From contig NZ_JAIWQW010000007.1 in the NCBI RefSeq assembly GCF_026122815.1, forward strand, positions 1 to 36,140: DNA of 36,140 bases, in the 5' to 3' direction. Origin of the DNA: Buchnera aphidicola (Pemphigus obesinymphae). GTDB lineage: Bacteria; Pseudomonadota; Gammaproteobacteria; Enterobacterales; Enterobacteriaceae. Below the pieces are notes generated by a model. The model saw only the letters and a list, made by a program, of their open reading frames with translations, was not told where the DNA came from and ran no database searches. Shown in pieces: positions 12,489 to 30,074 of the stretch (its first letter is position 1; the number at the start of each line of letters is the position of its first letter). The position numbers and the translations under genes are program-made.

Positions 12489-13847
12489 CTAGTTAAACAT
12501 GTTTTTGGGAATAATATTTTTAATTTGACTAATTACTTTTTTTACATTCCATGTCTTTATTTTTGTCATTATTTTCTTTAGATCGTTAAATTGTTTAAGT
12601 AATTTATTAATGTCTTGTATATTTACACCAGATCCTGAAGCAATACGACGTTTTTGTGATCCTTTGATAATTTCTGGTGTTTTTCTTTCTTTTTTCGTCA
12701 TTGAATTAATAATTGCTTCGAATTTAACTAAAATTTTATCGTTGATAAAAGATTGTATATGATTTAATTGTACTTGATTTTTAGGTAATTTTTCAATTAA
12801 ATTTGAAACGCCTCCCATGTTTTGCATTTGTTTAATGTGTATTAAAAAATCATTTAAATCAAATTTATTTTTATTTTTAAGTTTATTTTTTAATTTTTCA
12901 GATTTTCTTTTTTTCGTATATGCTTCAACATTTTCTATAAGAGATAATATATCTCCCATACCAAGGATACGAGATGCAATTCTATCTGGATAAAATGGTT
13001 CTATAGAATTTAATTTTTCTCCTGTTCCTATAAATTTAACTGGTTTTCCGGTAATAAATCGTATAGACAATGCTACTCCTCCTCTGGTATCACTATCCAT
13101 TTTAGTTAAAATGATACCCGATATAGGCACAATATTATTAAATACTGGTAGTATATTCATACTGTCTTGGCCTGTCATAGCATCAATAACGAGTAATGTT
13201 TCTATTGGTTTTATATTATCATGCATTTCTTTGATTTCATTCATCATTTTTTTTTCAACATGAAGTCTACCTGCTGTATCGATAAGTAATATATCATAAA
13301 ATTTTATTTTAGCGTATTCCAATGCTTTATTAGCAATTTCTATAGGTTTTTGATTAGAATTTGACGGGAAAACATCGATATTGACTTCTGAAGATAAAAC
13401 CTCTAATTGTTTGATAGCTGCAGGTCGATAAATATCTGTGGAAACCATTAATATTTTTTTTCTTTTTGTTTCTTTTAACAATTTTGCTAATTTTACTAAA
13501 TTAGTGGTTTTTCCAGATCCTTGCATCCCTACTATTAATAACACCGCAGGTGGGGATACATTAAGATTTAAAGTATTATTTTGTTCTCCCATAATTAATA
13601 TTAGTTCTTTTTTAACAATTTTTATAAATGTTTGTCCTGGAGTTAAAGTATTATTAATTTTATTTCCCAATGATTTTTTTTTCACATGATGTATAAATTG
13701 TTTTATTACAGGTAAAGCAACATCTGCTTCTAACAAAGCAATTCTTACTTCACGTAATGTTACAGAAATGTTATTTTCTGTTAATCTTCCTTTGTTAGCA
13801 ATTTTATTCAAAGTTTCTGATATACGTTTAGTTAGATGATCAAACAT
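12489..13847 (-). CDS. ffh: signal recognition particle protein Ffh
   Basis: SRP54 homologue that binds 4.5S RNA and signal sequences of nascent membrane proteins and docks with FtsY. The 452-residue protein (E. coli 453) has the N domain (1-90, ALLEADVALPV), the G domain with P-loop GMQGSGKTT at 107-115, DTAGRLH, TKMDSDTRGG and the GTGEK loop, then the Met-rich M domain from about 300 (HIKQMQNMGGVSNLIEKLP) with the RNA-binding RRIASGSG near 400. ATG start with GAGA upstream. Upstream of the rpsP operon on the same strand, as in E. coli. Confidence 0.98.
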   Translation of the reverse strand: MFDHLTKRISETLNKIANKGRLTENNISVTLREVRIALLEADVALPVIKQFIHHVKKKSLGNKINNTLTPGQTFIKIVKKELILIMGEQNNTLNLNVSPPAVLLIVGMQGSGKTTNLVKLAKLLKETKRKKILMVSTDIYRPAAIKQLEVLSSEVNIDVFPSNSNQKPIEIANKALEYAKIKFYDILLIDTAGRLHVEKKMMNEIKEMHDNIKPIETLLVIDAMTGQDSMNILPVFNNIVPISGIILTKMDSDTRGGVALSIRFITGKPVKFIGTGEKLNSIEPFYPDRIASRILGMGDILSLIENVEAYTKKRKSEKLKNKLKNKNKFDLNDFLIHIKQMQNMGGVSNLIEKLPKNQVQLNHIQSFINDKILVKFEAIINSMTKKERKTPEIIKGSQKRRIASGSGVNIQDINKLLKQFNDLKKIMTKIKTWNVKKVISQIKNIIPKNMFN

Positions 13848-14179
13848 AATTTTTCTCTATCATTAAGTAACAATAAAAGATCAATTTTTATAATATAAAA
13901 TGAAATATAAAAATTAAATTATATATATTTAACAATGGAATCTATACAATTATATTGTTAAAATAAAAATAATAATTTCAATTATTATTTTTTGTATATC
14001 TTTAAGTAGTAATCTTTTTAATTAGATATAGAAATTATGAACATTTCTATATTGAAGAATGTTAAAATATATAAAATTTCAAAAATGAAGAAAACAATAA
14101 TTTGTATAAAAAAATAATAAATTAATTTTTAATTTATTGAAAATTTTATTTCAGTGATATTTTTATATTTTATCGATAA
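13848..14179. other. gene-free spacer ffh / pheA
   Basis: Over 300 AT-rich bases between the ffh start and the pheA 3' hairpin. Contains an A/T inverted repeat near 14115-14140 but no open frame or recognisable RNA. The ffh promoter must be here or transcription reads through from pheA. Confidence 0.45.
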
Positions 14180-14221
14180 TATAACTCTATTGCAATCATG
14201 TCATTTTAATATAGAGTTATA
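14180..14221 (-). terminator. hairpin downstream of pheA
   Basis: TATAACTCTAT (14180-14190) and its perfect complement at 14211-14221 form an 11-bp stem with a 20-base loop, eight bases past the pheA stop. No clear T tract follows on the minus strand, so it is a weak terminator or 3' stabiliser. Confidence 0.5.
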
Positions 14222-14229
14222 TCATTATA

Positions 14230-15372
14230 TTATATGTTGATATTTGAGGATATGTTTTGGTAATACCCTAATATTTTTAAAGATTTAGTTATATTATGTA
14301 ATTTAGTTAGTATATTAGCCGTAAGAGATGATTTTTTTTTCATTAAAATATCCATATAAAATGTCTCTTCCCAAGGATGATCATATATAGGTCTAGATTC
14401 TAATTTTGTCATAATTAAATTATGTTCTTCTAATATTGATAATATTTCTAGTAGGGATTTTGTTTTTTTTTCAAATGTAAATAACAATGTGGTTTTTATT
14501 GGTTTTTCTTCTAATATATTTATTGGATTATTACCTAATATTAAAAAACGAGTTATATTATTTTTTTGATTAGATATATTTTTTAATAAAACTTGTAATT
14601 TATGATATTTTCCTCCAATTTCGCTTCCTAAAGCGGCAATATTTTTTTTTCTTATTTTAGCTACATGTTGTATAGCATCAGCTGAACTTAATGTATGTCT
14701 TATTTTCCAATCAGGAAATTTTTTTATAAATTTACTACATTGTTGAAAAGGTTGTGTATGACTGTAAATTTTTTTTATATTTTCTAAATTAGTGTTAGGT
14801 ATTGCTAATAAACAATGATTAATAGGGATGTAAGTTTCTCCAACAATAAATAGATTAGTATTTTTTAATAGATCATAAACTTCATTAATAGAACCTGAAG
14901 AAGTATTTTCTATGGGTAATATAGCAAAATTAGATTTTTTATTTTCTACAGATTCAACAACTTCTGTAAAAGAAGAACATGTTTTTTCTTTTATTTTTTT
15001 ATATTTTTTTTTACAGTTCATGACTGCAATATGGGAATAAGAGCCTTTAGGTCCAAGAAAAGAAAATATACTGGGGGAAAAATTATTTTTTTTTTCTAGT
15101 ATTTTTGTTTGGGTTGATACTGAATATTCTATTATAAGTTTAAATATATTTTTTACAAAATCGATGTTAAGATTTAATTTTTCTCCTAAATCAGTTACTT
15201 GTTTTAATAGTAATTTTTCACGTGTTACATCTCGAATGGGTTGGGAAGTGTGTTTTTTTTCTATTGCTATTTTTTTAATTATCGATTGTCTTTTGGCAAA
15301 AGTTTTTATTAATTTTTGATCAATTAAATTAATTTTATTACGTAAATAAAGTAAGTGATTTTCATAAATCAT
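14230..15372 (-). CDS. pheA: bifunctional chorismate mutase / prephenate dehydratase
   Basis: Converts chorismate to prephenate and then phenylpyruvate, the committed branch to phenylalanine, a nutrient aphids need. The 380 residues (E. coli 386) hold three domains. Chorismate mutase (1-90) keeps the E. coli active-site residues Arg11, Arg28, Lys39, Asp48, Arg51, Glu52, Ser84 and Gln88. Prephenate dehydratase (about 103-280) has FLGPKGSYSH, PIENTSSGSINEVYD and the catalytic TRF at 274-276. The ACT regulatory domain (about 290-380) keeps ESRP at 325-328, but the GALV phenylalanine-binding motif of E. coli reads KSLL at 305-308. A run of ten A spans the linker codons. The ATG aligns exactly with the E. 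coli start. No pheL leader peptide or attenuator is visible upstream. tyrA and aroF, neighbours in E. coli, are missing. Confidence 0.98.
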   Translation of the reverse strand: MIYENHLLYLRNKINLIDQKLIKTFAKRQSIIKKIAIEKKHTSQPIRDVTREKLLLKQVTDLGEKLNLNIDFVKNIFKLIIEYSVSTQTKILEKKNNFSPSIFSFLGPKGSYSHIAVMNCKKKYKKIKEKTCSSFTEVVESVENKKSNFAILPIENTSSGSINEVYDLLKNTNLFIVGETYIPINHCLLAIPNTNLENIKKIYSHTQPFQQCSKFIKKFPDWKIRHTLSSADAIQHVAKIRKKNIAALGSEIGGKYHKLQVLLKNISNQKNNITRFLILGNNPINILEEKPIKTTLLFTFEKKTKSLLEILSILEEHNLIMTKLESRPIYDHPWEETFYMDILMKKKSSLTANILTKLHNITKSLKILGYYQNISSNINI

Positions 15373-15948
15373 AATTGGCTACTTATTGAATATTTAATAA
15401 ATTTGATTTCAGAAGAATAGGTTTTAAGTAATAGTTTATATTTTTTATTAAAAATTTTTAAAAAAGAAAGTTCTTATATATTTATATATATAAATATATT
15501 TAAAAGAATTTTTGTAAAGATTTTAAATATTTATTTACTAAATAAAAAAAATAAATCATTATTATACGAAATATAAAATTTTAATTTTAAATTATTTTTA
15601 ATAAAAATAAATTTTGTATTAACATAATACATAGATATAAGATTGTTTTATTTTATTATAAATGCTATTATTTTAAATGAATAATATTATATAAGATAAT
15701 TAAAATTATTTTATTTTTATAAAAATAAAATAATTCATAAATTTTATTTAATAATATTAAAGTAATGAATTAATTTTGTCAAATATAAAGTATTTTGTTT
15801 TTTATTTAACATAATAGACAAATGTTATCTAATTTATAATTTTTTAGTATTTTTATATTTAATTATATGTAATGCATTTTTTCTAACATTATTTTAATTA
15901 TTATAGATTATTGTAGAAAATTATTTTTATTTTTAGGTGGTTTTTTAG
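15373..15948. other. divergent spacer pheA / rplM with A/T palindromes
   Basis: About 575 bases between the divergent pheA and rplM starts, with no open frame. It holds two perfect A/T palindromes: 24 bases at 15476-15499 and 32 bases at 15704-15735. Promoters for both genes must lie here. I looked on the minus strand for a Phe-rich leader peptide like pheL and found none. Confidence 0.55.
15704..15735. repeat. 32-base perfect A/T palindrome
   Basis: Bases 15704-15719 are the exact reverse complement of 15720-15735, with no spacer. It lies in the middle of the pheA/rplM divergent region, about 210 bases before rplM. It could extrude as a cruciform or bind a dimeric protein, but in DNA this A/T-rich it may also be drift. 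Confidence 0.6.
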
Positions 15949-16377
15949 ATGAAAACTTTTTCAGCTAAATCAAGTGATGTAAAAAAAAATTGGTATATGA
16001 TAGATGCTACAGGAAAAATATTAGGCAGATTAGCAACTGAATTGTCTCGTTATTTACGAGGAAAACATAAGGTAGAATATACGCCACATGTTGATGTCGG
16101 TGATTATTTAATAGTTTTAAATGCAAAAAATATTTTAGTTTCTGGAAGAAAAGAAAATAATAAAATTTATTATCATCATACAGGCTATATTGGAGGGATT
16201 AAAAGTTTTTCTTTTAGAGAAATGATACAAAAATCTCCAGAATGTGTTATTGAAAGAGCCGTAAAAGGAATGCTTCCAAAAGGGCCGTTAGGTCGTATGA
16301 TGTTTAAAAAGTTAAAAGTTTATGCTGGTAATAATCATAATCATGCAGCACAAAATCCACAGTTTTTAAATATTTAA
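15949..16377 (+). CDS. rplM: 50S ribosomal protein L13
   Basis: A 142-residue L13, the same length as in E. coli: [56 protein letters not shown], and [18 protein letters not shown]. It binds 23S rRNA early in 50S assembly. The ATG follows AGGTGG by about ten bases. It forms the conserved rplM-rpsI operon with the gene 17 bases downstream. Confidence 0.99.
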
Positions 16378-16394
16378 ATTAGGTTTATATAATA

Positions 16395-16787
16395 ATGACA
16401 GTAATTCAAGGTTACGGGACAGGTCGTAGGAAAAGATCTTCTGCTCGAGTTTTTATGAAGTTTGGTATTGGTAAAATATTTATTAACAAGTGTCAGTTAG
16501 AAGATTATTTTAGTAGAGAAACAGCGTGTATGATAGTACGCCAACCTTTAGAATTAGTAGATATGGTTTCTAAATTTGACTTTTATATTACTGTAAAAGG
16601 AGGAGGAATTTCTGGGCAAGCTGGTGCGGTGCGTCATGGTATTACTCGAGCTTTAATTAAATATAATTCATTGTTTAAAATTGATTTAAAAAAAGCTGGA
16701 TTTGTTACACGTGATTCTCGTCAAGTAGAACGCAAAAAAGTAGGTTTTCGTAAATCAAGAAAACGTCCACAGTTTTCTAAACGTTAA
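16395..16787 (+). CDS. rpsI: 30S ribosomal protein S9
   Basis: A 130-residue S9 (E. coli 130) with [14 protein letters not shown] at the N terminus, [20 protein letters not shown] in the core, and the basic tail [12 protein letters not shown], whose final Arg contacts the P-site tRNA anticodon. Second gene of rplM-rpsI, starting 17 bases after the rplM stop, and followed by a good intrinsic terminator. Confidence 0.99.
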
Positions 16788-27440: not shown

Positions 27441-30074
27441 ATGGCAGATGTAAATTTAAAATTGTTATCAAAAGAATTGAATATTTCAGTAAAAAAAATA
27501 ATTGATACTTTTTATAAGCTAGGTATATTAAAAAATGTTTGTGATGTGATAACTCCACAAGAGAAAACAGTATTATTAAGATTTTTATGTGAAAAAAAGG
27601 ATATTTTTCAAGAATCATTAACTTTACAAAGGAAAATTCGTAGTTTTTTAAATGTTTCTAGTATTGGAGGAAAAAATAAATTGGTAAAAATTGAAATAAG
27701 GAAAAATCATACTTATTTTAAAAATAATGTTGGAAAAGACAGATCTCTGAATGATAAAACAAATCTTAATTATATTGAAAAAGAAAAGGAGTTTTTAGTT
27801 ATTAAAAGTAAAAAAAAATCTTTAATTCATATTAATCAAAAAAGTAAAAAAGAACTAATTAATAAAAAAAATCATGAAGAAATTAATAACACAGGTGGTA
27901 ATAAGTTGAACGATAAATTAATTTCTTCTAAAAGAAATAAAAAAAATAATCGCGACTATAAAGTGAAAAATATAAAAAAAAATACAGATAGACGTAATAT
28001 TTCTATAGAAGAAAAAAAAATATTTAAAGATATACTAAATAATAAAATAGATAAAGAAGAAATAAAAAAAGATTATCATCTGACTACGTTTTTACGTGCC
28101 CGTCAAGCAGAAGATGAAAATGATCGAGCAATTGAAGGTAACCGTCGCATCAGAAATAAAAAAATTAGAAATAACCGTTATAGAAAAAATAATAAAAACT
28201 TAGAGTTTAAAAAAGATCGGGAAGGAATAAAATCAGTGATGCACGTTGGGAAAAATAGTAAATTAAAGAGTAAAGGAAGCATACTACAACAATTTTTTAA
28301 GAAGCCGCTGCAAAACATTAATAGAGATATTATAATAGGTGATGAATTAACTGTATCTGAATTAGCTAATAAAATGGCAGTGAAAAGTTCTGAAGTAATA
28401 AAGAAAATGATGCAGTTAGGTTTAATGATGACGATCAATCAAATTGTAGATCAAGAAACTGCCCAATTAGTAGCTGAAGAAATGGGTCATAAAGTGACTT
28501 TATATCGCGATAATGCGTTAGAAGAATTGTTAATGCAAAATAGAAAAATAAACAGTAATGCAATAAAATTAAGACCTCCTGTAGTTACTATTATGGGGCA
28601 TGTTGATCATGGGAAAACGTCGTTACTCGATTACATTAGATCAACTAATATTATTTCTAAAGAAGCAGGTGGTATTACTCAACATATAGGCGCTTATTGC
28701 GTAAAAACAAAAAATGGTATTATTACTTTTTTAGATACACCTGGACACGCTGCTTTTACTTCGATGAGAGCAAGAGGAGCACAAATTACCGATATAGTTG
28801 TTTTGGTAGTTGCTGCTGATGACGGAGTAATGCCTCAATCTATAGAATCTATTCAGCACGCAAATGCTGCTAAGGTTCCTATTATCGTTGCTATTAATAA
28901 AATTGACAAAGTAGAAGGTTCTCTGGATCCGTTAAAGAAAGAATTAATAAAACATTCTATTATTCCTGAAGAATGGGGTGGAGAGAATATATTTATTCCA
29001 GTATCAGCCAAATCGGGATATGGTATTAGTAATTTGCTTGACGCTATTCTATTGCAATCAGAGATATTAGATTTGAAATCTTTTTTTAGTGGGATGGCCA
29101 GTGGGGTTGTAATTGAGTCTTTTCTTGATAGAGGTCGCGGTCCTGTTGCTACTGTTTTGGTGCGTGAAGGTATATTAAAAAAAGGAGATATTCTACTATG
29201 TGGTTGTTCATATGGTAAAGTTCGAGCAATGAAAAGTGAAATTAATAATAGTATAACAGAAGCAGGTCCTTCTATTCCTGTACAAATATTAGGTTTATCT
29301 AAGATACCTGATATAGGTGATATTTTCACGGTAGTTAACGATGAAAAAAAAGCCCGAGAAGTTGCTTTTTATAGACAAGGTAAATTCCGTGAAGTGAAAT
29401 TAGCTAAGAAGAAAAAGATTAAATTAGAAAACGTATTTGATCATATTAAATCGGGGGAAAATTCCGCATTAAATATTGTTTTAAAGTCTGATGTTCAAGG
29501 ATCTTTAGAAGCGATTTCTGAATCTTTAATAAAATTATCTAATGATGAAGTTAAAATTAACATAGTCGGATCAGGAGTGGGAGGAATTACAGAGACAGAT
29601 GTTTCTTTAGCAATAGCATCAAACGCTATTATTCTTGGATTTAATGTTAGAGCAGATTCTTCGGCTAAACGTATGATTATATTGGAAAATATAGATATAC
29701 GTTATTATTCAATAATATATAAATTAATTGATGAAGTTAAAACAGCTATGTCAGGTATGTTATCTCCTGAATATAAACAGGAAATTATTGGGTTAGCTGT
29801 AGTAAGAAATATATTTAAATCTCCAAAATTTTCATCTATTGCTGGTTGTATGGTAACCGAAGGTATTATAAAAAGAAATCACCCTGTACGTATATTAAGA
29901 AATAATATAGTAATATACGAGGGAGAATTAGAATCGTTACGTCGTTTTAAAGAAGATGTAAATGAAATTAGAAATGCCATGGAATGTGGTATTGGTATAA
30001 AGAATTATAATGATATTCGGATAGGAGATATAATAGAAGTATTTGAGGTTAAAGAATGTCAGAGAAGTATTTAA
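27441..30074 (+). CDS. infB: translation initiation factor IF-2
   Basis: GTPase that brings fMet-tRNA to the 30S subunit and promotes subunit joining. The 877 residues (E. coli 890) start with the N1 domain ([14 protein letters not shown]), followed by a long, poorly conserved Lys/Asn-rich linker (about 60-270) that replaces the charged Glu/Ala repeats of E. coli. The conserved N2-end block is [17 protein letters not shown] and [20 protein letters not shown]. The G domain has GHVDHGKT at 386-393, [24 protein letters not shown] and SAKSGYG. C1/C2 domains follow ([10 protein letters not shown]-like [24 protein letters not shown]-type [13 protein letters not shown]). ATG start 17 bases after nusA. 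A run of nine A in the linker is in frame. Confidence 0.98.

Follow-up and report, generated by a model that had tools for sequence, protein, structure and literature searches.

The phenylalanine-sensing motif of PheA is altered in Buchnera aphidicola (Pemphigus obesinymphae)

The pheA gene and its phenylalanine site

The stretch of DNA analyzed here, 36,140 nucleotides in full and called the window below, carries an intact pheA gene on the reverse strand. The gene and its domains are as follows.

14230..15372, reverse strand: pheA, bifunctional chorismate mutase/prephenate dehydratase (P-protein), intact open reading frame of 380 aa
15109..15345, reverse strand: chorismate mutase (CM) domain, residues 10-88 (PF01817, 63.3 bits; fold match to 1ecm, Z 12.4)
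14527..15063, reverse strand: prephenate dehydratase (PDT) catalytic domain, residues 104-282 (PF00800, 210.3 and 208.5 bits)
14257..14505, reverse strand: C-terminal ACT domain of PheA (secondary structure, Pfam ACT score and 2qmx match)

The protein is a bifunctional PheA of the ordinary kind for a Buchnera-type endosymbiont, with its catalytic domains kept. Both of them score over the Pfam cut-offs, which are 27 bits for PF01817 (AroQ-type chorismate mutase) and 25.2 for PF00800 (here 208.5 bits). The best NCBIfam match, NF007910, reaches 414.9 bits over residues 1-372, below its cut-off of 577, and marks the protein as divergent yet full-length. For the Pfam ACT family, which has a cut-off of 27 bits, the window protein scores 16.3 bits and E. 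coli PheA 13.8, so that neither reaches it. An AlphaFold2 monomer model (mean pLDDT 81.7, pTM 0.65) matches structure 2qmx over residues 100-376 (Z 28.4, 267 residues, rmsd 2.6), and in this model the ACT fold appears to be retained.

E. coli PheA (b2599) is 44% identical to the window protein over residues 1-371 and shares with it the CM-PDT-ACT domain order, the ESRP motif and the tryptophan of WEE. The two genes differ in their neighbourhood, and the two proteins differ in the first half of the phenylalanine site, where E. coli has TGQQA and GALV while the window has FEKKT and KSLL:

14461..14475, reverse strand: FEKKT loop, residues 300-304, replacing E. coli T304-G-Q-Q-A308 (alignment)
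14449..14460, reverse strand: KSLL, residues 305-308, replacing E. coli G309-A-L-V (ungapped alignment), with the Lys codon AAA at 14458-14460
14389..14400, reverse strand: ESRP, residues 325-328, the intact second half of the site (alignment)
14371..14373, reverse strand: W334, retained, equivalent to E. coli W338 (alignment)

The first-pass annotation had read KSLL as the counterpart of GALV, and the alignment places it without gaps on G309-A310-L311-V312. It had also described ESRP as intact, which is correct, but the interval 14395-14470 that it gave for the site cuts ESRP short.

Two of the replacements inside the motif have parallels elsewhere. GSLV stands at this position in four of the 46 loci of our second comparison set (described below), and GSLF in the phenylalanine-inhibited enzyme of C. 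tepidum. Judged from these alignments, A to S and V to L are ordinary variation, and Gly to Lys is the sole radical change in the motif. Still, the idea that one substitution is the whole story was rejected, since the TGQQA loop has also been rewritten; its QQ to KK change is common to all three unbroken pheA genes of the window's genus. The C. tepidum enzyme (2QMX, L-Phe inhibited; the matched chain of 283 residues holds PDT and ACT only) has a PDT-ACT fold like that of the window protein and the same S-L at motif positions two and three, but it keeps the Gly. The Gly is not absolute, because the Brucella PDT 6vh5, whose title names a complex with phenylalanine (bound at this site or another), has Ala there (A-A-L-Y).

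In E. coli pheA, mutations at about codons 304-310 lead to feedback resistance. PMC12822336, on E. coli engineering, lists pheA(G309C) and T326P as feedback-resistant alleles, in agreement with what the first-pass annotation had said about the Gly of GALV. For phenylalanine hydroxylase (PAH), whose ACT domain is related, PMC3828330 describes GAL and IESRP as taking part in Phe binding, and it cites 2QMX as a Phe-bound PDT.

E. coli pheA is preceded by a pheL-type leader, and none was found upstream of pheA in the window. Rfam gave no match up to E 1 in 13800-16400, whereas its Phe_leader model, used as a positive control, scored 132.3 bits upstream of E. coli pheA. No terminator-like site was present in 15300-15960. 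An open reading frame at 15531-15632 (reverse strand, 33 aa) has a leader-like end, DLFFLFSK. It was rejected as an attenuator because G002, an 86%-identical genome, has it only in broken form, because the different Phe-containing frame upstream in G003 (32 aa) could not be matched to it, and because no terminator was found. The rejection carries a reservation, as a comparable Phe run arose in 2.75% of 2000 mononucleotide shuffles and is not plainly due to chance. One possible promoter was noted by consensus match:

15754..15782, reverse strand: possible pheA promoter, TTGACA-17-TAATAT, about 380-410 bases upstream of the start

G002 and G003 share its TTGACA. Promoter-like sites number seven in the region, compared with an average of 11 in shuffled sequence.

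The site in large-genome relatives and in the symbiont group

A family search found a match in 340 of 392 genomes, and 69 small genomes were given follow-up searches. The resulting alignment comprised 86 sequences, E. coli included. GALV and ESRP occur together in E. coli and in 27 of 27 large-genome rows, which were taken from among the best-scoring of the 340 matching genomes and are no random draw. By that standard the Lys of the window goes beyond background variation. In the second set, drawn largely from Providencia, Photorhabdus and Xenorhabdus, 42 of 46 loci have G[AS]L plus any fourth residue together with ESRP; the other four (one piece of 216 aa and three non-enteric hits of 259-287 aa) were too short for the motif window, which started at residue 285.

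The gene order rplM (divergent)/pheA/ffh is common to 49 loci from 44 genomes, a group that we take to be the Buchnera group. The first-pass annotation had proposed to align the motif across Buchnera strains, and in this group the Gly of GALV is kept in only one of 39 countable rows (G003) and ESRP in four (the window, G002, G003 and G021). The 39 rows are the 44 genomes without G335, G129, G001, G384 and G329; by its alignment G384 has neither motif, and the match of G329 stops at residue 274. Two small g7 genomes, a few other weak matches and the fragmented pheA of three further g127 genomes were left out. In a further 16 rows, taken from genomes of at most 1.4 Mb, the Gly is kept in eight and ESRP in seven.

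How far does the erosion extend beyond the motif? Over 38 symbiont rows (the 39 less G264), mean retention of the columns invariant in 28 large-genome sequences is 0.31 for ACT, 0.57 for PDT and 0.53 for CM. Within ACT, the Phe-site columns are retained at 0.19 versus 0.36 for the others (one-sided Mann-Whitney p 0.035), and leaving out the window's genus gives 0.16 versus 0.34 (p 0.027); the column set (304-312, 328-332, 338) was chosen after seeing the data. The column-by-column alignment is uncertain where ACT domains are strongly degraded. Some C-terminal ACT columns persist, G373 in 38 of 38 rows and Y375 in 37 of 38. In the sister genera decay affects the ACT domain throughout.

The number of losses depends on the model. 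Under Dollo parsimony, over 80 root placements outside the genus, there were 3-15 losses of the Gly and 4-14 of ESRP. These counts assume no regain, whereas Gly is one base away from GAA and could be regained. Simple parsimony with regain allowed needs one change for Gly and two for ESRP. Both loss counts label all 44 genomes, with G001, G335, G129, G384 and G329 set as lacking (gene in pieces, no ACT, or absent from the alignment), and both use a tree from a 'quick' method with 12 of 41 inner branches open.

One member of the group has gone further. G335, of a sister genus, agrees with the window in gene order, CM and PDT, but its PheA (L144:1556-2440) has only 294 aa and no ACT domain, and no ACT remnant was detected in the 305 bases preceding ffh. 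No other observation argues as strongly that the group can do without phenylalanine sensing. None of the papers examined on Buchnera and ACT domains, PMC1173090 and PMC11980547 among them, describes a PheA that has lost its ACT domain, although such a loss may well have been published elsewhere.

Separately, in genus g89 a stand-alone prephenate dehydratase of 226-230 aa lies on second contigs of 5.0-6.8 kb in all four genomes read:

L142:2806-3492, stand-alone prephenate dehydratase
L143:4544-5224, stand-alone prephenate dehydratase
L148:2905-3597, stand-alone prephenate dehydratase
L149:2828-3517, stand-alone prephenate dehydratase

A Pfam scan of two of the four found PDT only, with no CM and no ACT. 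The gene adjoins a RepA-like frame and an outer-membrane-like frame of 923-1001 aa, and the second contig of G340 also carries a pectinase-like frame, all three named by inspection. The arrangement resembles that of reed-beetle symbionts, where the plasmid gene is called a bifunctional CM/PDT (PMC7289800). Of the 80 records matched in a plasmid search, the 20 listed include no Buchnera pheA, and two scans of genome contigs (one of 151 stretches, none of them confirmed, and the one behind the 46 loci) yielded no Buchnera.

Codon series and selection in the window's genus

The window's genus is represented by four genomes: that of the window (G000), G001, G002 and G003. A neighbour-gene tree of Ffh, RplM and RpsI, made by the 'quick' method with starred support, resolves them as (G001,(G003,(window,G002))). 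The codon equivalent to Gly309 is GGA in G003, GAA in G002 and AAA in the window. The series GGA-GAA-AAA amounts to two G-to-A steps, in the direction of AT mutational pressure.

Across this genus, identity to E. coli is 0.49-0.50 in ACT and 0.47-0.49 in PDT, so that by this measure ACT has diverged no further than PDT. The window keeps 0.59 of the invariant columns in ACT versus 0.72 in PDT, and G003 keeps 0.57 versus 0.73. The Lys form thus came without further general decay, because the ACT value of the window is close to that of the Gly-bearing G003. Between the window and G003 identity is 0.60 in ACT and 0.76 in PDT. Values of dN/dS, based on small numbers and AT-rich codons, are 0.39 (ACT), 0.21 (PDT) and 0.37 (CM) for the window against G002, and 0.38, 0.36 and 0.33 for the window against G003; for ACT they span 0.36-0.39 across the genus comparisons. 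The ACT domain of this genus is still under purifying selection, and therefore full loss of sensing cannot be assumed. Taken together with the identity values, dN/dS describes a still-constrained ACT domain with a damaged pocket and not a ruined domain. Since the QQ to KK change is also present in the Gly-bearing G003, even that enzyme may not be fully Phe-sensitive.

In G001 pheA (L145:1809-2943) falls into three frames, and the shifts lie close to stretches rich in A; they may reflect an error of sequencing, a frameshift that is tolerated, or true decay.

Possible roles of relaxed constraint and selection

Nutritional symbionts must make more of an amino acid than they need themselves. The question at stake is then: Were their allosteric brakes selected away, or did these decay because they were unneeded? 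A desensitised Buchnera PheA was already proposed by Jimenez, Gonzalez-Candelas and Silva (2000, J Bacteriol 182:2967), as cited in PMC2649895, PMC5054487 and PMC11980547, and the first-pass annotation had mentioned such a proposal. The core idea is therefore known. What is added here is its comparative extension, a graded natural series that makes desensitisation testable.

The pattern of residues suggests that the window PheA is probably desensitised, at least in part. The replacement of Gly by Lys at the start of helix alpha-1, together with the rewritten loop before it, would amount to a damaged Phe site. The Lys side chain and the lost glycine geometry may lower the affinity for Phe at the ACT dimer interface, and Phe would then no longer hold prephenate dehydratase inhibited at physiological levels. 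Inhibition in vivo would be reduced accordingly, and with no attenuator detected upstream the PheA step may be near-unregulated inside the symbiont. We consider it fairly probable that relaxed constraint and drift towards AT have weakened or abolished phenylalanine inhibition, with overproduction as a tolerated or useful consequence. The most likely route would have been relaxed end-product control combined with the AT-biased mutations GGA to GAA to AAA.

Adaptive desensitisation, in which Lys was selected since an unregulated PheA raises the phenylalanine supply of the host, would rest on much of the same evidence. The aphid host needs phenylalanine, the site has been lost nearly throughout the symbiont group, and the Dollo counts would make this loss repeated, as selection for overproduction would also do. 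However, simple parsimony reduces these losses to one or two changes, K, E and G coexist within one genus along an AT-ward codon path, and the decay of the whole ACT domain in the sister genera is what relaxed constraint (neutral decay) predicts. The dN/dS of ACT also stays below 1, although its amino acids change faster than those of PDT. Relaxed constraint combined with AT-biased drift appears to account for the comparative pattern better than one adaptive replacement would, and we regard the adaptive account as unlikely. Of the suggestion in the first-pass annotation that the change suits overproduction for the host, weakened sensing thus stands as the most likely consequence, whereas overproduction as an adaptation would be the less likely part. 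Feedback loss would also not be general in Buchnera, because the allosteric (feedback) site of its anthranilate synthase is reported as conserved in the relevant passage of PMC5054487.

That last observation is among those that speak against desensitisation, along with the intact ESRP and W334, the purifying selection on ACT and the Ala of Brucella 6vh5. Those on PheA and PDT could mean that the enzyme is still normally Phe-sensitive, with Lys tolerated and ESRP, the Trp and the ACT dimer sufficient, and the predicted retention of the ACT fold agrees with this. We find such full sensitivity quite improbable, given that every large-genome row keeps the Gly, that G309C in E. coli is used for feedback resistance (same passage of PMC12822336), and that a long charged side chain would be more drastic than Ala or Cys. 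An artefact, with Lys arising from an assembly or base error, would draw on the 9-A run at 14463-14471, two bases from the K305 codon, and on the fragmented assembly of the window (146 contigs, contamination 8.55). Yet the reading frame remains open, the codon differs by substitution with no base inserted or deleted, and Gly is missing from the sister genome G002 as well, which makes an error of this kind extremely unlikely.

More tentatively, one may ask whether the whole group records a stepwise dismantling of the PheA allosteric module, from Gly to Glu and Lys, through erosion of the site, to the loss of ACT in G335, with end-product control of phenylalanine moved outside the symbiont. We see this as possible but somewhat doubtful. 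If true, feedback strength would vary in natural doses among living strains, and a series from Gly-bearing to ACT-less PheA in one gene neighbourhood would allow the question of selection or decay to be tested with few enzymes. A weaker variant is that the pocket of the Lys and Glu forms now responds to a different effector.

The coding sequence of pheA has seven runs of at least eight A, up to 10, within 14332-15260. This is the joint highest number among 20 window frames checked, shared with a frame at 27441-30074 of more than twice the length. Slippage on such runs was considered as a source of ACT-less PheA, since frames slipped after the 9-A run (residue 301) would end at 307 or 317 aa. 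It was rejected because the seven runs span pheA, and slippage would not be specific to the ACT boundary.

The assembly G000 has 680,759 bases, more than the 600,000 listed for each of the other three genomes of the genus; from its size and contamination, it may therefore hold foreign contigs. Its leuA region (L095, G000:C137) matches 34 plasmid records, all in the 60-80% identity band, and 32 of them are from Buchnera. The host is probably none of the aphids behind the named Buchnera leucine plasmids, to which this region is at most 77.0% identical among the 20 of 34 records listed, from a collection that may omit near records.
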